Assembly: GCF_000003605.2 (NCBI RefSeq)
Contig: NW_003142819.1
Span: 77,808-141,807 of the forward strand
DNA: 64,000 nt
DNA from: Saccoglossus kowalevskii
Taxonomy: Eukaryota > Hemichordata > Enteropneusta > Harrimaniidae
Direction of reading: 5' to 3'
How positions within the stretch are numbered: position 1 is the first letter of the stretch; each line of letters opens with the position of its first letter. A program made the position numbers and the translations under genes. Shown here piece after piece: positions 40,200-53,244 of this stretch. The notes beneath the pieces are model-generated. The model was given only the letters and a program-made list of their open reading frames with translations, was not told the DNA's origin and did no database searches.

Positions 40200-42344
40200 T
40201 GTCATGAATTTGTTTTCGCGTATCTGTTGCGTACTAGTGTATGGCTGTGTTAGACCTCTATTTCTGACAGTTGGTATTCGCAGTTAGTAATATAGTGAAC
40301 GATTAATCAAAAGTTATGACGTGTCCAGTACTTAGTGTGATTGGCTGTATGATTGAAGGCCACGTCTTAATAAATGAATAAACAAGAGAGACGCAGTCTA
40401 GGGACAGAGTCTTGGGTCAGCCTTGCGATAGTCTTGGGGACTTTTTCCCAGGGCGCTGTGTCTCACATGGTACTCGACTGACGAGAGTTGAAATGTATTT
40501 TGTTGTGTGCGTCTATTTGACTGTAAGGTTTAAGTGACTTTTCCGATCCCGTTTGACGACTGCGTTTGATGACTAACGACATTACCCGAATCACGCCGAT
40601 GAACAACGCTGAAGAGATGAAGACTTCGGAGCCCCTTAGGAAGGACAAGTATCGATTAGAACTGTATAATCAAGGTGACTTGAGCAACATTAAAGACAAG
40701 ATGATGAAATAACGACCCGGACTAACGCAATGAAAGAGGAGAAGACGCTATAGAGACTGTGATTAGAACTTTAGCTATTTGTGTATTGTGTAGAGAACCG
40801 TAATGGACACTGTAACTCAAAGACATTGAACTCTTTTTCAGAATCTCAACACTATTGTTCAGTATGTAACGTATTGCTTGCTTTTTTTTATATTGAATTG
40901 TATGTATGTGAGCGCCCAGATCTTTGTTTTGAACTGATATTTAGTGATGTGCGAGGTCCTTTATATTGATTTAAGCATGTTTCAGTGGACAAGTATTTGC
41001 AACACAGTGTTATGAGTTTTATGAAGTTTTATGGTGTTTTACTGAGTTTAAGAGTAAGGAATATGATGGGGAGAGTAATGCCCCAAAGAGTTTTCAGAGT
41101 TTTAGTAGTTGTCGATGTACAGAGATACCGACGTTTTGAGAATTATTGAAGTTTACGTGTTGTTTTCGGAATACTTTTGGACACTTTTTGTGAGTTGATT
41201 TGAGTTGAGAGCATTTTGGAACGTTTTTTTATGTCTTTTTGAAATGAGATTGTGGTGCGCCTATGTATGTATTGTTTGATAACGCAAGCTTTTGCTCATG
41301 ATTGACAAGATTATATGTAACTTAGTAGTGTCTATCGTTTTAGCCTTTTCCCGTCGTTTTTGCCAGAGGAGTAATGTGTTATGATAACGACTTTGTTTTT
41401 GAATTCCGTTTCCACGCCGTATGACTTTTGTTTAGATTAACGACTTGTGAGTTCAGTTGAAGTTTATAAGTATAAGCGTATAGGACAGAAGTTTGATTAA
41501 TAGATTGTTTATTCATTGATTAGTAGTAGTTGCAATGCTTTAACCGAGAGACGCATCCCTGGTAATTACATCATCATGCTGTCGACTGCAGCGATTGGCT
41601 GGTCGCTTGGTTACACCGCCACGCCTTAGTTTTTTTTACCTTTTGATATAGAGTTTGTAACCTTAGTAACGGGAGACAGTGCAGCGAAGGGCTTATGTCG
41701 GCGGACTGTTTTGAGGAAAACGGTACGGTTTGAGCCCCTTCCTGGAAGAGTAGGATATTTAGACTTATAACCGTTGATATTTGTGACTTTATAACCATTG
41801 TATTTAGAATTATAATCAGTGTATTTAATCAGTGTGTTTTACTCTTTTGATTAGTATTGTATTTAACCTGTATGACGATGAGTAGATGACGGTATCCTTG
41901 ATTTATGAACGTGTTATGCCAGGAGGCATAGCTCAGTTTGGGTGAAGAGATGTGTCATGAATTTGTTTGCATGTATTTGTTAATCGACTTATTTAGCTGA
42001 TTACTAGTGAATGGCTGTGTTAGATCTGTCATCATTTAAGTTCATGCGGGGTCCTGGACGGAACTTGACTCAGTGATTTGGAACTAATTACGATATAACC
42101 GTTGCCATTCGGACCGCTATTTCTGACAGTTGGTATTCGCAGTTAGTAATATAGTGAACTATAAATCAAAATTTATGACGTGTCCAGTACTTAGTGTGAT
42201 TGGCGATAGTCTTGGTGACTTTTCCCCAGGGCGCTGTGTGACTTTTCCGATACCGTACCTCAAGGGGACGTGTATAGAGAGAAGACGAGTATTCCCCCTG
42301 ACACGTGTTTGGGAACCCCATAGGAGAAAATTTTCCCCATGATA
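40200..42344 (+). mobile_element. Non-autonomous LTR-type element (fossil) nested in mariner
   Basis: It begins TGTCATGAATTTG and ends CATGATA, flanked by a 4-bp ACGC duplication (40196-40199 and 42345-42348). Direct terminal repeats lie at 40200 to about 40550 and at 41953-42344. They share the stretch from gacagttggtattcgcag to gggcgctgtgt. The interior of about 1.4 kb shows no retroelement protein. A solo copy of the terminal repeat lies at 59535-60269. It is an old, non-coding copy; family assignment beyond LTR-type is uncertain. Confidence 0.65.
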
Positions 42345-42595
42345 ACGCTCTGGTCCACAACTCGCATGTTGCCAGATCAGAAGCACAGGCGTGTGGCGAT
42401 GAACTCCCCACCCATCCCCCTCACTCTCCTGACCTTGCACCCTCTGAATTTCATCTCTTCCCAGCCATGAGAGGAAAGCGTTTCCCAGATGATGCAGCCT
42501 TGATTTCTGAAGTTATGACGTGGTTGGAGGACCAACCAGGGGTGTTCTACAAAACGGTGTCTAAAGCTGCATCAAACGATGGGAGAAATGCATAA
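42345..42595 (+). pseudogene. Mariner transposase, C-terminal part
   Basis: Open frame ALVHNSHVARSEAQACGDEL, then HPPHSPDLAPSEFHLFPAMR, ending NDGRNA then TAA. SPDLAPSEFHLFP carries the third catalytic Asp of the mariner DD34D triad. It is separated from the N-terminal part by the nested element at 40200-42344. The right inverted repeat follows within about 100 bp. Confidence 0.85.
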
Positions 42596-43233: not shown

Positions 43234-43239
43234 TTTATT
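43234..43239 (-). terminator. Poly(A) signal of copy A
   Basis: AATAAA on the minus strand, about 90 bp after the stop codon of copy A. Confidence 0.55.
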
Positions 43240-43328: not shown

Positions 43329-43408
43329 TCAATGATGTTGCCCTCTACAACACGTGGCCACAGCCCACGTACCACCACCGTTACCGTTAACAGCTTTGCA
43401 GGTGTCAT
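43329..43408 (-). CDS. Copy A exon 7: end of module 3
   Basis: 80 nt, phase 1 in. It encodes DTCKAVNGNGGGTWAVATCC then RGQHH and TGA at 43331-43329. Human PCSK9 ends this module NTCVV...VTAVAICCRS. Confidence 0.86.
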
Positions 43409-46400
43409 CTACAGAACAAAACATATACATTGTTAGGAGTCTCCTCTCTGGAAATTACGAGCACATTCAGAAAGTACACAGGTCATTTGTCAATGATGCG
43501 TCTATTGAGATTTTTATTGGAGGGAGTATAGAAAGTTGGGCAAGTCCAATTGAGTACATGTAGTTTAGTATGAAGATTTTTGTTGTTGAAAATCTTACAA
43601 TTTCAAAAAAGTGCTTCTCTGACTTACCCTCAATATATGCTCCATGATTACCAACCCATGCAGTGTAGCTGTTACACCCAGTTAATGTCCACCCTTCGTC
43701 ACACCAGACTTCCGCTATGTCCCCAATATCAACACCACTCTTTGTGGAATACTTGACCCCACATTCAAGGTCAGGGGCGCTGCAACACGCAGCGTAGGAG
43801 TATACCCCTGTAAGATATCGTTAGTTTTAATCACATGCAGCTCATTTTAGTTGTATGTACTATTAAAGACGAATAAATACATTCCAAATAGTTCGGTGGG
43901 TAAATGAACACATATCCTTACCTGCACCACAATAGCCGTTAATTGCCTGACACGCGTTCCTTGTTATGGGGCTAGTAGTTTCTTCTGATTGGTCTCCTAC
44001 AGGGCGTGCACCATCTATACATGTCCATGGAGTATACGCCATGCATCCTGGGTAATAAAGTAACCATATTTGGTATAAAGAGGGGGAGGCAAGGGTTATT
44101 TTCGTTCAACGTAATTGCAATATATTTTTGTTCGTACAACGTAAATTGAACAAGCAGCCTATCGGCTGAGATAGCTCCGCTGTTAGCAATGCACATTTCA
44201 ATTAAAGAACTGAAGACATGATTAGAAAATGAACAATATGAATAGTATCAAAGCAATCAGACTTACAGTTTTTAACAAGAAGTCGAAAATATCACTTTTT
44301 ACCAAAAAATTACAAAAATATTCACCAAAATAAATNNNNNNNNNNNNNNNNNNNNNNNNNNNNNNNNNNNNNNNNNNNNNNNNNNNNNNNNNNNNNNNNN
44401 NNNNNNNNNNNNNNNNNNNNNNNNNNNNNNNNNNNNNNNNNNNNNNNNNNNNNNNNNNNNNNNNNNNNNNNNNNNNNNNNNNNNNNNNNNNNNNNNNNNN
44501 NNNNNNNNNNNNNNNNNNNNNNNNNNNNNNNNNNNNNNNNNNNNNNNNNNNNNNNNNNNNNNNNNNNNNNNNNNNNNNNNNNNNNNNNNNNNNNNNNNNN
44601 NNNNNNNNNNNNNNNNNNNNNNNNNNNNNNNNNNNNNNNNNNNNNNNNNNNNNNNNNNNNNNNNNNNNNNNNNNNNNNNNNNNNNNNNNNNNNNNNNNNN
44701 NNNNNNNNNNNNNNNNNNNNNNNNNNNNNNNNNNNNNNNNNNNNNNNNNNNNNNNNNNNNNAGGTCCACATGTAGTACCTATATATGTAATATCAAAGCA
44801 ATGGACTTGCGGTTTTAACAAGAAGTCGAAAATATCACTTTTTACCAAAAATTACAAAAATATTCACCAAAATTAGAGAATTAAAGATATCATTACGAAA
44901 ATGAACAAATCTGAGAGAGGTCCACATGTAGTACCTATATATGTAATATCAAAGCAATTGGACTTGCGGTTTTACAAGAAGTCGAAAATATCACTTTTTA
45001 CCAAAAATGACAAAAATATTCACCAAAATTAGAGAATTAAAGATATCATTACAAAATGAACAAATCTAAGAGAGGTCCACATGTAGTACCTATATATGTA
45101 ATATCAAAGCAATTGCACTTGCGGTTTTACAAGAAGTCGAAAATATCACTTTTTACAAAATGACAAAAATATTCACCAAAATTAGAGAATTGAAGATATC
45201 AACATGAAATGAACAAACCTAAGAGAGGTCTACCCAAGGTACATATACACCAAGTATCAAAGCATTCAGGCTTGTAGTTTTCAAGAAGAAGTCGAAAAAG
45301 TAAAACATTGACACGGACGACGGACGACGGACGACGACGACGGACGACGACGACGGACGACGACGGACAATCACTCATATGATAAGCTCCGCTCGACAAA
45401 GTCGACAGCGGAGCTAAAAAAAATAATTCCATAATTCTGTAATCACAGGCTAGACGTACAACGTAATCAATCAAATATTTTTTTCGTTTACTGTATAAAA
45501 TGTGTCATTTTTTTCGGTACGTACAAGAATTTTCTAGGTTTTCTTGTTTAATTTTCCGTAACATGTAAAATACCCTTTATTTTCTCTGTAAACATTCAAT
45601 TTCCACTGTAAACTGTAAAAATGTTTGTTTTTTTCCTTGTAAATTGTAAAAAGCCCTTTTTATTTCCCGTAAAACTGTACCAACTACCCCTTGCCCCCTC
45701 TATAAATAAATCAAATAGATAGACGACTTTCCCGGAAGTAGCAAAACTGGGGTGCAAAAATACTCCTGCTTTGTCACGGTGGAAAATACAAACATGTCAG
45801 ATTGCTTATAATCGATAGAAGGGGATTCTATTTTTGTGATATCAATTGGTGCACTCAGAAGCACAATATCACGCATGCAAGTTTACGTTACACCCCAAAA
45901 CGACATGCGCGCGCATGCGAAACGCCGTATCTTCGACTTCCGGGAAAGTCCACACGCTATTGTGTTATTCAATTTGAAAGACATGTTACTATGGTAACTT
46001 ACCTGTGGGAATTGTAGGACGCCGGTTGAACCAATGATCACATACTGTTTCAGCTATAGCGTCGTCTTGTCTTTCGGATTTTTCAGACTTGGGGTAATAG
46101 CACGTCATATCAGGCCATGTACAGCAACGTGCAAATGCTCGCACTCCTAATAAATGTACATATATTTGCCGGGTCATCATTTCTCTTGGCACAACAGGGA
46201 CATTACTGTTATCTTATAAACATTTATAAATTTCACATTTCAAAATAAAACAAGAGTTTCTATTGACCGATTGAACAACAATGTAACATTTTCAAATTAA
46301 GTCAACGCGAACTGCACTCTTAAACTGACATTGACATTTATAAATAATTATCAAGACGAAGGGAATGCATTTGTTGTGCCGATAGTAAAGCACAACGATT

Positions 46401-48522
46401 ATTAAATCTTCTTTCGACACATCGTTTGGGGATATATAATGTACATTATATAGTGTTTGACTATGGGGACAGGCGATACTACCCAGATGCTACCAATGGG
46501 GGGGGGATCGCTTAGAAAATAAACTGCAGACATGGGGAAATGTCCGAGATTACAAATTCAATATTTATTGTCTTATGATTTCAACAGGACAATAATTGTG
46601 ATTTGTGACAGGATCTAAAGATCTATAAGTCAAGTCAAATTACCGCCGCAAATGACTCATTCCAAACGCCTGCTAAAAAATCTACACTAAATCAATACGA
46701 GTATTATTGTAGACAACAAAAACGAATGAGCTGAACATCATTTAGCCTGACATTTATGCGTGAGTAGGCCCTCGCCGGCCGAACGACATCAGACCTCACT
46801 GTGTGGGTTTGGAGAACCACTGAGCAACTCACGCGACCTCGTCAGGCTAAACATCATTGTACCACAATCAGTCAAATCGATGTAATAAGCCATGATGTGT
46901 AATGTCAATATCAGGACAATAAACATGTTTGAGGATGTATTCAAATAAACTAATGCATTTCGTGTATTCAGAAAACCAGTAAGTCAGTGCATCAAACCCA
47001 GAACAAATTGACGAGTGTGTGTTTCATTTTTATATCATGTTGGAACAAAATCGGCATTTACACATCCACCGTCCATAAACACGGGACTAAGATACCGTTA
47101 TCTTTTTCATGTTTGCAGAATATTTCATACAATCTGATGAACGCAATCAGTTGTACAATTTATCTCAGTTAAACTTACCAGCCCCTCCAACACCATTGTA
47201 TGCCACACAAGTGGCGCGTCCCTGTACGGAAAACACAATTTTTTCACCATCCCTTGAATCGTGTCCACCGCCTTGCAGAAGACTGCTACATCCAGTCATT
47301 ACCTCATCTTCCAAACACGTGACCTGGGACGGGTCGTCATCGCCCGTATTGGACACTAGTCCTTGTCGAGTAGTGCAGACGGGTTGTATATTTGTCGCAC
47401 ATTCTTTTGATTTCAACTGCCCGATTTCTTGAAAAATCATGAAAATAAAAATATTGCGGGTATCGATGATAGCGAGTACTTTCTACATATTATAGTAGAA
47501 TACTTCGACTTTTCACGGAAAGTAAAATTCTTAACAAGTCTGAATTCTCTGAACTACAGTGTCCGCTATGATTGTACTGACGTAATTGATAGAATGACGT
47601 GGACTGACTTACCATTTCTTATCAAGTCTATATTCTCTGAAATACGAGCAACGGTATCCGCTGTAGTTGCACTGACGTCATAAAGGTCACATACATCGCA
47701 CGTTTGCTGTTATTGATAAAAATAACAAATGATATAAAACGAACAAGTGATTGGGTTAATATTGCTTCTCGGATTTAGATTTTAAAAAATCAATTTTTGC
47801 ATAGTATTTGCGAGTATTTGAGCTCATGACCTGACCTAGGGAGCCACAGAGAACTGCAAGTTGTGGGGCGTTCCCAGGCGACTACCTAGCATAGTGATAA
47901 AATACCCATAGTCTCTGCGAAGGAGAGCGGGAATTCGGGTATCGTCGGGTTATCATTCGATTCGAACGCCGCGTTTGCTGATATGTGCTTTAAACTTTTG
48001 AGTGATAAGTAAAACTTTGACACCTTTCACAAAATATAATCCACGTATTTGTTTTAATATGTTTTACCTAAATGCTAACCAAGACCTGCAGTAAATAAAC
48101 ATAAATAATAACAATTGTGTTTTGGTTAAAAATTATCAAAAACCGTGGCACTCTTAGAAACAGCATGAAAATGAGCAACATTTTGCCAGTGACAAAATAT
48201 GCTAGAACAAAAATAAATACGACGTATGTATTCTAAATATCATGCATGATAACTAGTAATATCTCGTAAATATACTCAATTAATATAAGAGTAATACAAA
48301 ATATAACGCAGATATTATTAATATCTTATAAACCCTTGTTAGCATGTAATCTCAATCATTCTGTCTGAAACATCACAGACCACAGTTCACAAATAACGCT
48401 TTGGTACGAGTCATGGTAGGTACGTTGGTGACAATTGTCGAACTCACCACTGAAATTACGCTTGCATCCCCGGCTGAAGTTACGAGAAGAAACACAGTGA
48501 AGAGAAATGCGTTGGTGTACAT
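43329..48522 (-). CDS. Secreted PCSK9-type Cys-rich-domain protein, copy A (spliced)
   Basis: Seven exons on the minus strand: 48448-48522, 47613-47706, 47179-47427, 46003-46146, 43922-44047, 43628-43807 and 43329-43408. They total 948 nt, encoding 315 residues. The start MYTNAFLFTVFLLVTSAGDA is a signal peptide. A QTCDVCD segment and a short helical stretch follow. Three modules then match the PCSK9 C-terminal domain M1-M3: VTCLEDEVMTGCSS...VRAFARCC; TGCMAY...VYSYAACCSAPDLEC; CDEGWTLTGCNS...WAVATCC. About 23 cysteines suggest an extracellular disulfide-rich protein. There is no subtilisin domain. A poly(A) signal lies at 43239-43234. Homology to the PCSK9 domain is by motif recognition; function is unknown, probably a secreted ligand or adaptor. 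Confidence 0.85.
43628..43807 (-). CDS. Copy A exon 6: end of module 2, start of module 3
   Basis: 180 nt, phase 1 to phase 1. It encodes VYSYAACCSAPDLECGVKYS and CDEGWTLTGCNSYTAW. Human PCSK9 has IHASCCHAPGLECKVKEH and CEEGWTLTGCSA at the same places. Confidence 0.9.
43922..44047 (-). CDS. Copy A exon 5: module 2
   Basis: 126 nt, phase 1 to phase 1. It encodes CMAYTPWTCIDGARPVGDQS through RNACQAINGYCGAG. It differs from copy B at 4 of 43 residues. Confidence 0.87.
44236..45290. repeat. 155-bp tandem array in copy A intron 4
   Basis: Units start at 44762, 44918, 45073 and 45226 (aggtccacatgtag or a close variant), about 155 bp apart, with another partial unit left of the N gap. Units share gaagtcgaaaatatcac and aaaatattcaccaaa. 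The array is AT-rich, and the assembly collapsed here into a 426-N gap. Confidence 0.85.
44336..44761. other. Assembly gap inside the tandem array
   Basis: 426 N, lying wholly within intron 4 of copy A, so no exon is lost. Confidence 0.95.
45309..45420. repeat. GACGGAC microsatellite and gagctaaaaa tail
   Basis: An array of gacgacgga-type units, then a short palindrome-rich tail (ctccgctcgacaaagtcgac and gcggagctaaaaa). It closes the tandem array and marks one end of the dispersed family. Confidence 0.75.
45725..45950. mobile_element. Short inverted-repeat element
   Basis: A perfect 15-bp inverted repeat, gactttcccggaagt (45725-45739) and acttccgggaaagtc (45936-45950), encloses about 200 bp with a gcgcgcatgcg core. 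It lies in copy A intron 4. Confidence 0.5.
46003..46146 (-). CDS. Copy A exon 4: CC motif of module 1, start of module 2
   Basis: 144 nt, phase 1 to phase 1. It encodes VRAFARCCTWPDMTCYYPKS through AETVCDHWFNRRPTIPTG, corresponding to PCSK9 VYAIARCC and the following Cys. It differs from copy B at only 4 of 49 residues. Confidence 0.88.
46743..46849. mobile_element. 107-bp MITE with 9-bp target duplication
   Basis: Ends TAGCCTGAC and GTCAGGCTA are perfect inverted repeats, flanked by AACATCATT on both sides (46734-46742 and 46850-46858). A 9-bp duplication is typical of Mutator-like elements. It lies in intron 3 of copy A and has no coding capacity. Confidence 0.75.
47179..47427 (-). CDS. 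Copy A exon 3: start of Cys-rich module 1
   Basis: 249 nt, phase 1 to phase 1. It encodes EIGQLKSKECATNIQPVC..., then VTCLEDEVMTGCSS, and ends with GRATCVAYNGVGGAG. Human PCSK9 has LVCRAHNAFGGEG at the corresponding place. Confidence 0.88.
47613..47706 (-). CDS. Copy A exon 2: CxxC and short helix
   Basis: 94 nt, phase 0 in and phase 1 out. It encodes QTCDVCDLYDVSATTADTVA then RISENIDLIRN. The second half is amphipathic and may form a coiled coil. Same length as exon 2 of copy B. Confidence 0.82.
47707..48447. other. Intron 1 of copy A
   Basis: No exon or named repeat was recognised. Confidence 0.5.
48448..48522 (-). CDS. Copy A exon 1: signal peptide
   Basis: Starts at the ATG at 48522 and encodes MYTNAFLFTVFLLVTSAGDA then SVISV, phase 0 out (gtgagt). 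The hydrophobic core and small residues fit a cleavable signal peptide. A TATA-like box is about 50 bp upstream. Confidence 0.8.
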
Positions 48523-48572
48523 CTTGTCGAAGCAATGAAGTTACTGTAACATCAACATTAAGTGTTGTGCAC

Positions 48573-48594
48573 TCTTATACACAAAACTACGTCA
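48573..48594 (-). promoter_or_regulatory. Core promoter of copy A (TGACGTAG and TATA-like box)
   Basis: On the minus strand TGACGTAG (48594-48587) is followed by TATAAGA (48579-48573), about 50 bp before the ATG at 48522. Confidence 0.5.
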
Positions 48595-49206
48595 TTGAAA
48601 ATTTGAATACAATGCTGTTTATCGACCGTTGATGCCAAAACAACACAACAGGAGATGACATCATTGTTTTCAAGTGCACTGGTGTCGTATACAGCCTGCA
48701 TACAAATCCTCTGACCACGGCATATATGATATGCTATTGTGAATGATTGTATCAACTAACCAAATGATGTAGGTTGCTATTTACTTATTTGTTAATACAA
48801 TTTTCATGTGTACAAATAATTGCAATTTAGGAGTTATTTCACATCTATTTCCTGCCCTATGAAATGTTCTGGCCAATTTGTTTTTGCCAAGTTGTCTAAT
48901 TCGGCGACAGGATGTCAGGCTCTGTTGTGATTGTTGTTTTGATTTTACGGACTACTTTGTAATATGCCAAAATAATTCTCATATTTTTGCCTGAAAGTTG
49001 GGTTATAATTACATTTACCCAAAACTGCAGTTCAAAGAATTGTGGTAACGACAGTAATACTGTAAATATAAAAAATAATCAGATATAAAAATACAGATGC
49101 TTTTAGGTTTGTAGATAAAGGATATGGATGTCGGCTATGAGGTAAATAACCATGAATACAATGACCCCGTGTTATAAGCGACCGATAACAAGTTGAAAAA
49201 ACCACG

Positions 49207-49231
49207 TGACGTAGATTAGTCAGATATAAAA
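49207..49231 (+). promoter_or_regulatory. Core promoter of copy B (TGACGTAG and TATA box)
   Basis: TGACGTAG at 49207-49214 overlaps a CACGTG E-box (49203-49208). It is followed by TATAAAA at 49225-49231, about 46-70 bp upstream of the ATG. The same two elements occur in the same order before copy A. Confidence 0.55.
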
Positions 49232-49276
49232 CCAGACACACGTAAATTTTGATATTATAGTAAATACAGTTTTGGC

Positions 49277-49342
49277 ATGATGCATCTAAACACAGTTTTC
49301 TTCGCTTACTCTATTCTGACGATTACAGTCGTGGTAACATTG
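49277..49342 (+). CDS. Copy B exon 1: signal peptide
   Basis: 66 nt, phase 0 out (gtgagt). It encodes MMHLNTVFFAYSILTITVVV then TL. A TATA-like TATAAAA lies at 49225-49231, about 46 bp upstream of the ATG. Confidence 0.8.
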
Positions 49343-52300
49343 GTGAGTCTTATGTTTATTTCAAAAGAATTATTTGAACGATGTCATAATAGAAATATTA
49401 ACAGGTATATTATGCGAAATCGTTTTGAAGATGAATTTCACATCATTCTGTTATAGAAACTTGTGAACCGAGTATATTTCACTCTAAGCCATCAAGGTCC
49501 ATAAATTGTGATATCACATCATATAATATCTGTTAAATAAGAAATCTTGACAAATTTGTCTACACAGCATTTAAATTAGTCGTATACATGTACCAACATG
49601 TAACTGATTTACAAATATAATGATTTATTGAACTTATGTAACTCTGTTTGATGCCCCGTACACGTAGCCTGGTGGCATTAGACACGTTATGTATTTGGTC
49701 GAACTTTGATATTTAGTAAATAAAGATATACCATACAGTGAGTGGTCGATACAAATACACGGCGTGGCCGATACTCAGTTGATACAGATAAAACTTAGTG
49801 AATGTGCACAAAATATTTAGGTTCATCTAAATTAACCTATACTTCTAAATTAGTATTGGCTTGTCGATTAAGTTATATAATGATATTTTTGAATAACAGG
49901 AAACGTGTCATGTCTGTGATGTTTATAACGTCGGTACAAATACAGCGGAGATCGTGGATAGTATATCAGAGCGTATAGACATGTTATCAGATGGTAAGTC
50001 ACAGTCATGCATCGATTAATGTAATAACTTTGAAAAACAAAGTTCTATTGAACTACAACCTGGCCGGACCTTATTGGCAGTGGTTATATTTTCTAGAAAT
50101 CAAGCAGATGAAAGCCCAAGAATGTAATAACAGCCGAGAACACACCTGTGTCACTCGGGAAGGGTCGTCCTCCGGTCCTGACGACGACAACATGTCCGAG
50201 GTCACATGTTTAGAAGATGAGGTAATGACCGGATGTAGCAGTGTTCTGGAAGGTGGTAGACACGATTCTAGAAATGGTGAAAAAATTGTGTTCTCAGCTC
50301 ATGGACGCGCCACTTGTGTGGCATACAATGGCAATGGAGGGCATGGTAAGTGATACGGACAATGTAACACACAATAATTCAGATGATTTGCATCACTTTA
50401 TGTAGGCAGGAAATACACGTCATGTCAGATAAACCTAAGTTTTTAGGTTGTCAAATAACGAACAATTCGTAGTGCACCCTATTCATTTGAACAATAGGCT
50501 TTAATCTACAATTAACTTGCTATATCCGTATTTAGAACTCTTGATGATCGTCTGTTTGAAATACGATTAATTGATTTGAGGAAATAACTTGCAAATGATA
50601 TGTAGTTCTTTTGCGAGTAGTGTCTAACTAAAATAACTAGCTTAGAAATTATGTCTACGATTGGTTAAAGATGAATTTCACTTCATTCTGTTACAGAAAC
50701 TTGCGAACCAAGCATATAGACATAATATACATTACGCCACCCATTAGTCAAATTCGTTGGGTACGTGTTGTAAGCAAAGCGTCGTGGATGACATAGCAAA
50801 GCTGTTCATATATTAGATGATTGTCCGTCGTTGTATTCAAATATTATGTATTCTTCTTAAAATCTACCATCCTGATTGCTTTGGTATGATACATGTAGAT
50901 ACATGTAGATACCTTGGGTCACAGTCCCTCAACACGGGATGTAACGCGGGGGAACAACATGAACAAATCTCGTGTGGAGGGACTGTGCTTAGGTGGACCT
51001 CTATCAGATTTGTTCATTTCCTGACAATATCATTCATTCTCTATTTTTAGCGAATATTGTTGTCATTGTTGGTAAAAATGATATTTTTGACTTCTTAAAA
51101 ACTAGAAGTCCGATTGGTTTGGTATGTTTTATTTAGGGATCTTTGGTAGACCTTTAAGAGATTTGTTCATTTCATGGCGATACCATCATTTAAACACATT
51201 TCTATTTTAAGCGAATATTTTTGATCAAAATGGCATTTTCGACCTATTCTTGAAAACTACCAGCCCGATTGTTTTGATAGTCGAGTTGTACATCATTTTT
51301 GGTGAAGTTAGGTTGGCATATTCAAAAAGCCAGAGCCAGAACCTTTTTGTGGGTTACCTGCGTGGTGTGCATTACTGAAATTGGCTACTACCACAATACT
51401 CTTTGAGGAGGGTCGGCAAGGGACATTTTCGTAAGCTGTAATCAATTGTTTTTATTTTCGTAATAACGTAATTTAAATAAATAAAAAACGTAAATTCGTA
51501 GACACGGGCACGTTGTAAAAGGCAATCAGCTATTTTATTCGTCGTAATTTGTACAAAGATCTTGATTTTTGTAAGCGTATAAAACATTTTCCACATTAAA
51601 AGTCGTAATTCGTGCTAAATTTCCAATTTTCATTCTTAAACACAAATTATCATATATATTATAAAAATGTAAAATTTGCTTTATCTGTAAAGTGTAAAAA
51701 CCTTTTTTACTGGAAATGGAACTTTCCATTTTATTTCCTGTAAACATGTAAAATGCATTTTTTATTTTCTGTAACCTGTACCAGCTCTTCCCTTTGCCCC
51801 CCCCCCCACCTTAAGGACAACGGAGCCATGTCGCTTGTTTTCATTTTTGATAAAAAAATAAGATTTTTCAGGAAAACTACCAGCCCGATTACTTTGATTG
51901 TGTGAACCTCTTTCATATTTGTTCATGTTGTTCTCTCACGTTACATACCGTGTTTCCCATGGGTTCGTATGTATTTCCTTCATATATCAATGACTCGACC
52001 TGTACTTGAATAATACCAAAATACGATTGTTATTTGCAGGAGTGCGGGCATTTGCACGTTGCTGTACATGGAAAGATATGACGTGCTATTACCCCAAGTC
52101 TGAAAAATCCGAAAGTCAGGACGACGATATAGCTGAAACAGTATGTGATCATTGGTTCAACGGGCGTCCTACAATTCCCACAGGTAAGTTACCGTGGTAA
52201 CATATCAATCAAATGAAATAAAATAAGAAGCATGTATGGCAAACCTTCAACTATTTGATATGTTTGATTTATTTATACCAAATATGGTTTCTTTATTACC

Positions 52301-53069
52301 CAGGATGCATGGCGTTTACTGCATGGACGTGTATAGATGGTGTACGCCCTGTAGGAGACCAATCAGAAGGAACTACTAGCCCCATAACAAGGAACGCGTG
52401 TCAGGCAATTAACGGCTATTGTGGTGCAGGTAAGGATATGTTCAAACCATCAAATTATTGTTGTACCCTTGTCTGAAGACATGCCATATAAATGTTTGGT
52501 GTATCTTACAGGCGTGTATTCGTACGCTGCATGTTGCAGCGCCCCTGACCTTGAATGTGGGGTCAAGTATTCCACAAGGAGTGGTACTAGTAGTTGGGAC
52601 AGTGCGTCAGTGATGTGCGATGAAGGGTGGACATTAACTGGATGTAACAGTTTCACTTCATGGGTTGGTAATATTGGAGCATATATTGAGGGTAAGTTTT
52701 AACATGTATCATAATATTTACATATATTTGTATATATTCGATGCCACTAGTAAAACTCGTTCGTTGGTCGGTCATAAAATTTACATGTTATCAATGAAAA
52801 TTGAAAATGTCCAATCGATGGTCGACCAGATGTATATTGGGTTATTAGTGTGTTCGCAATGATTCAGGGAAATCTGGATTAAGTGTTATTTTGGTAAATG
52901 ACACTGCAGTCTGAGAAACTGTACTCGTTTTGTGTTGGTGAATAACTCATACAGGAGATGCTTAACATAATTCTTGTTTGTTCTCCCAGGTGATACTTGT
53001 AAAGCGGTGAACAGTAACAACTTTGGTGTATGGGCTGTGGCTACGTGCTGTAGAGGTACAACCCGTTAA
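49277..53069 (+). CDS. Secreted PCSK9-type Cys-rich-domain protein, copy B (spliced)
   Basis: Seven exons: 49277-49342, 49900-49993, 50097-50345, 52040-52183, 52304-52429, 52512-52691 and 52990-53069. They total 939 nt, encoding 312 residues, with the same exon lengths as copy A except exon 1. Signal-like start MMHLNTVFFAYSILTITVVV; then ETCHVCD, a helix with SISERIDML, and three Cys-rich modules matching PCSK9 M1-M3 (TCLEDEVMTGCSS...VRAFARCC; TGCMAF...VYSYAACCSAPDLEC; CDEGWTLTGCNS...WAVATCC). There is no protease domain. In PCSK9 this C-terminal domain is needed for LDL-receptor degradation and binds CAP1; whether a stand-alone version does the same is unknown. ATG 49277 is followed directly by a second ATG (49280). 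A poly(A) signal lies at 53239. Confidence 0.87.
49900..49993 (+). CDS. Copy B exon 2: CxxC and short helix
   Basis: 94 nt, phase 0 in and phase 1 out. It encodes ETCHVCDVYNVGTNTAEIVD then SISERIDMLSD. The arrangement Cys, then helix with a xINERI/xISERI-like pattern, recalls the resistin N-terminus. Confidence 0.82.
50097..50345 (+). CDS. Copy B exon 3: start of Cys-rich module 1
   Basis: 249 nt, phase 1 to phase 1. It encodes EIKQMKAQECNNSREHTC..., then VTCLEDEVMTGCSS, and ends GRATCVAYNGNGGHG. Confidence 0.9.
50820..51330. repeat. Dispersed tandem family, copy in copy B intron 3
   Basis: It shows the complement of the 155-bp unit seen at 44762-45290: gtggacct, agatttgttcatttc, gcgaatatt and ttcgacttctt-like blocks, repeated about 2-3 times, with a tgtccgtcgt head. 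It lies in intron 3 of copy B, a different intron from that in copy A. Confidence 0.6.
51407..51806. mobile_element. Foldback-type element in copy B intron 3
   Basis: Inverted ends (ggcaagggac on the left; ccctttgcccccc on the right) and inward arrays of gtaa/acgtaa and gtaaaatg. It is related to the outer element at 44087-45705. Confidence 0.5.
52040..52183 (+). CDS. Copy B exon 4: CC motif of module 1, start of module 2
   Basis: 144 nt, phase 1 to phase 1. It encodes VRAFARCCTWKDMTCYYPKS through AETVCDHWFNGRPTIPTG. Intron sequence just after the donor is also similar to copy A. Confidence 0.9.
52304..52429 (+). CDS. Copy B exon 5: module 2
   Basis: 126 nt, phase 1 to phase 1. It encodes CMAFTAWTCIDGVRPVGDQS through RNACQAINGYCGAG. 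Confidence 0.88.
52512..52691 (+). CDS. Copy B exon 6: end of module 2, start of module 3
   Basis: 180 nt, phase 1 to phase 1. It encodes VYSYAACCSAPDLECGVKYS and CDEGWTLTGCNSFTSW, ending GAYIEG; human PCSK9 has LGAYAVDNTC at that point. Confidence 0.9.
52990..53069 (+). CDS. Copy B exon 7: end of module 3
   Basis: 80 nt, phase 1 in. It encodes DTCKAVNSNNFGVWAVATCC then RGTTR and TAA at 53067-53069. Confidence 0.88.
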
Positions 53070-53238: not shown

Positions 53239-53244
53239 AATAAA
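53239..53244 (+). terminator. Poly(A) signal of copy B
   Basis: AATAAA, 170 bp after the stop codon of copy B. Confidence 0.55.

Follow-up and report, generated by a model that had tools for sequence, protein, structure and literature searches.

PCSK9 is a regulator of human cholesterol and a major drug target, and its C-terminal tail, a domain best known as the tail of a protease, takes part in receptor degradation. To our knowledge, the origin of this tail is unsettled. Can such a domain stand alone as a gene of its own, and what would a free form tell about the formation of PCSK9? This question is raised by a 64,000-nucleotide stretch of contig NW_003142819.1 (the window; its contig is C3373 in our searches), in which two head-to-head genes, gene A on the minus strand and gene B on the plus strand, encode PCSK9-type tails with no protease found in cis. 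As the best explanation, to which we assign a probability of about 0.62, we propose that A and B belong to a secreted, protease-free PCSK9-tail family of avidity binders and that a module of this type was later fused on the vertebrate PCSK9 line.

Two genes for free PCSK9 tails

A sequence-only reading of the window had described two genes with the three-module architecture of the PCSK9 tail, each with its own signal peptide and lacking a subtilisin, and had named a profile search as one way to check it. According to that reading, the domain is not known in vertebrates other than at the end of PCSK9. Both genes could be rebuilt as open models at the expected positions and with the quoted motifs, and the profile search gave significant matches. 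Protein A matches the Pfam families PCSK9_C1 and PCSK9_C3 at 4e-21 and 4.2e-16, protein B at 3.3e-20 and 3.9e-15, all over the curated cut-offs. In a phmmer comparison with PDB chains, residues 70-308 of B match the PCSK9 tail (1.7e-17), and a profile of ten family members matches it at 7.9e-32, while the next, unrelated match has an E of 0.2. The 18 cysteines of the human tail, six per module, all have aligned counterparts in A and B. The module 1 cysteine steps (C1-C2 20, C2-C3 9, C4-C5 17) and the step of 7 between modules are the same as in human PCSK9. Identity to the human tail amounts to 77/216 residues for A and 76/217 for B, and to 33-39% across the ten members.

The three-module homology is supported, with PCSK9_C2 below its cut-off in both proteins. 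Both proteins share with the PCSK9 C-terminal (V) domain (PF18459, PF18464, PF18463) three modules in the same order and 18 cysteines, but differ from it by the lack of a detected protease in cis, by an own leader and a helix in front, by extra cysteines and by a longer middle module. A prodomain family was not among the Pfam matches of A or B, although no dedicated search was made. No relative was confirmed in pattern scans that covered 48 stretches from bacteria and archaea and 30 from viral contigs.

The models of A and B were built from genomic sequence only. Each gene comprises seven exons, open to the stop codon, and the start codons lie 757 bp apart. The proteins of 315 (A) and 311 amino acids (B) are identical at 223 of 311 aligned residues, and exon lengths are equal except for exon 1 (75 versus 63 bases). 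All introns are of the GT-AG type; intron 1 is in phase 0 and the other five in phase 1. In gene A, exon 1 (48448..48522) holds the start codon and a hydrophobic leader, exon 2 (47613..47706) a CxxC motif and a heptad helix, exon 3 (47179..47427) the helix end and the first part of module 1, exon 4 (46003..46146) the end of module 1 and the start of module 2, exon 5 (43922..44047) the middle of module 2, exon 6 (43628..43807) its end and the start of module 3, and exon 7 (43329..43408) the end of module 3 and the stop codon. The same parts are encoded in gene B by 49280..49342, 49900..49993, 50097..50345, 52040..52183, 52304..52429, 52512..52691 and 52990..53069, respectively. In both genes exons 1 and 2 thus encode leader and helix, and the predicted signal peptides find their counterpart in leader-like first exons, as judged by hydropathy.

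By eye, promoter-like elements were seen ∼50 bases 5' of the gene B start codon (TATAAAA, 49225..49231, plus strand) and ∼52 bases 5' of that of gene A (TATAAG, 48574..48579, minus strand). AATAAA occurs 3' of both stop codons, at 53239..53244 (plus strand) for B and 43234..43239 (minus strand) for A. A gene A intron contains, next to an assembly gap (44336-44761), a 156-base unit repeated ∼3.5 times in tandem (44762-45298) and, after it, a stretch rich in GACGACGG (45313-45365).

Between the A and B tails, the Nei-Gojobori method, used without a significance test, gave a dN of 0.102 and a dS of 0.278 (ratio 0.37); dN/dS was 0.78 for the first 85 codons and 0.52 for the whole sequence. These values suggest constraint on the tail.

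A multigene family

The sequence-only reading was extended by a search of the genome to which the window belongs (572 Mb, 4830 contigs), which revealed ∼12 assembled copies rather than two genes, as well as separate proteases and a resistin-like gene. PCSK9_C1 matched 11 exons, 10 of them over the cut-off. For PCSK9_C3, a threshold of E 1 yielded 17 matches, and 12 of these were over the cut-off. All 11 PCSK9_C1 exons and these 12 PCSK9_C3 exons are located on six contigs (C3373, C3647, C2799, C3905, C258 and C4008). Eleven copies have all five tail exons, and the twelfth, at a contig end, has the last three. Because our exon finder required phase-1 introns, the common intron phase counts as independent evidence for A and B only. 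Leader-like exons were seen by eye 5' of the copies C258, C3905b and C4008a, which we regard as tentative.

Ten copies including A and B were aligned, with C3905c and C4008b left out and the C3905b exons joined over an unread gap. The family tree is unrooted and has a very long human branch. In copy C4008a, module 1 is without precisely two core cysteines, the first and the last, which are disulfide-bonded to each other in human PCSK9. The copies on C2799 and C3905 are unlikely to be alleles, since their DNA identity in aligned pieces is 73-86%; the pair C2799b and C3905a (78-86%) are probably separate copies. Two further candidates were rejected. A third CDEGWT match, on C3610, was taken as due to chance, as the surrounding 9.9 kb showed no tail exon on the strand concerned and the contig has no PCSK9_C1 or PCSK9_C3 match. 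On C1644, which would be a seventh contig, a PCSK9_C3 match at E 0.95 contains two stops and was set aside.

The chains of A, B and the C3647 copy carry, in front of the modules, a short helix with cysteines on either side. In A and B, a 3-4-3-4-3 heptad pattern between the cysteines is complete (6/6, in stretches picked by eye), a score reached by 0 of 5000 shuffles for A and 3 of 5000 for B. No convincing helix exon besides that of C3647 was found in the other copies, for several of which only ∼1.5 kb upstream were covered. The cysteine counts of the three helix-bearing members are odd (23, 23 and 21). Those of the seven other aligned members are even (20 or 16), counted from exon 3 on with the upstream exons unresolved. 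Six of these seven have both cysteines at alignment columns 42 and 157, while the helix-bearing members have no cysteine at column 157. The odd counts and the column 42/157 pattern would fit an interchain bond beside the helix. In resistin, a cysteine-flanked N-terminal helix carries such an interchain bond.

Proteases and a resistin-like gene on other contigs

No subtilisin had been noticed next to the tails, and none was detected with Peptidase_S8 on the window's contig (E 0.001) or, with a small profile made from two sequences, among the window's open reading frames (ORFs). In the whole genome, Peptidase_S8 gave 33 matches at E 0.001; they are spread over 17 contigs, and the six tail contigs are not among these. 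Many of the matches run across stops, a pattern expected of decayed copies or of exons whose reading continues into an intron. By motif reading, 19 of 30 loci were classified, namely 13 as proteinase-K-like, five as furin-like (two of them overlapping) and one as site-1-protease-like. Exons with the proteinase-K-like motif label occur on C4556, C131, C3060, C2117, C2347 and other contigs, with several on one contig. With the two-sequence profile, 25 ORFs were detected among the S8 loci but not one in 29 tail loci; at E 0.01, the tail profiles had no match among the S8 loci. Both halves of PCSK9 thus exist in this genome, apparently unlinked, and no fused gene was seen.

These data bear on the explanation that an ancestral full-length PCSK9 lost its protease half in this lineage, after which the tails multiplied. 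Such a loss would agree with the domain being best known as a protease tail and with the presence of proteinase-K-like subtilisins in the genome. Against it speak the tail contigs and tail loci without a subtilisin match, although these negatives argue against a recent loss only, as an old loss would be traceless. We regard a loss as rather unlikely.

The Pfam Resistin profile gave one genome match over the cut-off (5.5e-9) and one weak match. The former belongs to a complete gene model of three exons on the minus strand of C4672 (16089-16014, 15781-15710 and 14334-14171). Its protein of 103 amino acids consists of a leader and one resistin domain, and matches Pfam Resistin at 2.2e-14 and the RELM-beta structure 1rh7 at 1.6e-8. 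Intron 2 contains an interspersed repeat with 92-96% identity to copies on at least 36 other contigs, among them the tail contig C258 (40 of 753 candidates scored). Because of these copies we consider the gene as native and not as contamination. In a 2015 survey of vertebrate genomes, genes of the resistin type were confined to mammals, Sauria, amphibians and the coelacanth (PMC4467842); given that account, an invertebrate resistin-like gene would move the origin of resistin back.

How close are the tails to this protein? A profile of single tail modules scored it with 4.8 bits, less than the 8.0 bits attained by the best of 2000 shuffles. Pfam Resistin did not match A or B, and among 20 tail modules it matched one at E 0.017, under the cut-off. 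A and B resemble the resistin/RELM family (PF06954) in a C2-C3 step of 9 with TGC, in a CC near the end and in the cysteine-flanked helix, but they carry three modules per chain and show no significant sequence match, whether as A, B or module profile. The PCSK9 tail resembles a resistin trimer, and since the tail modules do not match beyond chance, kinship of tail and resistin rests on this published similarity of fold.

Could the free tails act as resistin does, as hormones or cytokines that signal through a receptor of the CAP1 type? The cysteine-flanked helix before the modules, as in resistin, and the presence of the resistin-like gene on C4672 would speak for this. In humans, CAP1, the resistin receptor, is bound by the PCSK9 tail as well as by resistin (PMC10981688). 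On the other side stand the module scores, which are no higher than those of shuffles, and an expansion in local arrays, which in our judgement seems less typical of a hormone. On balance a hormone appears unlikely to us.

Still less probable is a split PCSK9, in which the free tail would assist or regulate separate proteinase-K-like proteases in trans; both parts are multicopy within one genome, but tail and protease genes are apparently unlinked. An annotation artefact, with the exons belonging to a bigger gene whose protease part lies further 5', is conceivable for sequence-only models but highly improbable for a head-to-head pair whose start codons are 757 bp apart. Both genes also have leader exons of their own as well as TATA-like boxes and AATAAA signals, and there is no subtilisin match in the window ORFs or on the contig.

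Possible role and origin of the free tails

We propose that A and B are secreted without a protease, as members of a multigene PCSK9-tail family. Their three cysteine-rich modules in one chain would correspond to a resistin trimer made as a single polypeptide, and the helix of A, B and the C3647 copy would probably join chains into oligomers. Such proteins may bind extracellular partners by avidity, with no proteolysis involved. In the lineage of vertebrate PCSK9, a domain of this type most likely became fused to a proteinase-K-like protease.

Several observations weigh against this proposal. PCSK9_C2, the profile of the middle module, reached only 9.9 bits in A (cut-off 26.1), did not match B, and at E 1 had no match anywhere in the genome. 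The six core cysteines of this module nevertheless align in A and B. In two of four other members scanned it came just below the cut-off, over module 1 and not module 2. The helix pattern of the C3647 copy is weak (5/6, reached by 319 of 5000 shuffles), and the leaders of A and B were judged from hydropathy alone. Two of the tail contigs are shorter than 60 kb, and therefore a distant protease exon could escape detection. The free form is likely ancestral, but the comparison comprises one genome and does not polarise the order of events against a fission or a loss. Finally, the ribbon-worm section considered next leaves open whether tails or proteases are meant (PMC9132205).

A and B might act as a ligand, as a mucus or defence protein, or as a partner of proteases in trans; the sequence-only reading had also suggested a decoy or ligand for the partners of PCSK9. 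Among these roles, we tentatively favour epithelial secretion, in mucus or innate defence, by analogy to a ribbon worm: in one section of that study, transcripts of the PCSK9 superfamily are grouped with putative proteins of defence, mucus and the body wall (PMC9132205). The likeness to these proteins, found in a mucus proteome, consists in the name, as the domain they carry is unstated there. A sea-cucumber "PCSK9" likewise shares the name but is described as a collagen-degrading serine protease (PMC5897022). A further paper treats, in the part considered, placental mammals (PMC8553125). No account of free PCSK9 tails appeared among the best-ranked open-access titles and abstracts, although database entries may well exist. 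Likewise, the Pfam names and accessions of the PCSK9 tail occurred in no paper of the open-access literature searched, which excludes subscription papers and database annotations.

The occurrence of tail, protease type and resistin as separate genes in one genome makes a fusion origin testable, and suggests that PCSK9 was possibly assembled from parts able to exist as separate genes. More speculatively, invertebrate deuterostomes might keep these parts as separate gene families, as a free, oligomeric, resistin-like tail in a single chain, proteinase-K-like proteases and a true resistin; PCSK9 would then have arisen by fusion, and a signalling role of the tail of the resistin and CAP1 type could be older than the one in cholesterol regulation. 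Natural stand-alone tails are also usable for structure and binding work.

Lineage and further observations

The deuterostome origin assumed in the sequence-only reading is plausible by the mitochondrial code. In COX1 on C4830, TGA is read as Trp (9 codons). At nine ATA positions, the best-matching solved chain 7o37_a, presumably from mouse, has Ile five times, Val twice, and Leu and Met once each. AAA occurs once, at a conserved Lys, versus six AAG, and AGA and AGG are absent. We take this codon use to fit the hemichordate and not the echinoderm mitochondrial code, which points to a hemichordate, cnidarian-type codes not having been formally tested against. In the genome search hemerythrin gave no match; neither did haemocyanin, where the search was uninformative by its own control. 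In the window, a remnant at 42302-42592 resembles, by eye, the end of a mariner-type transposase.
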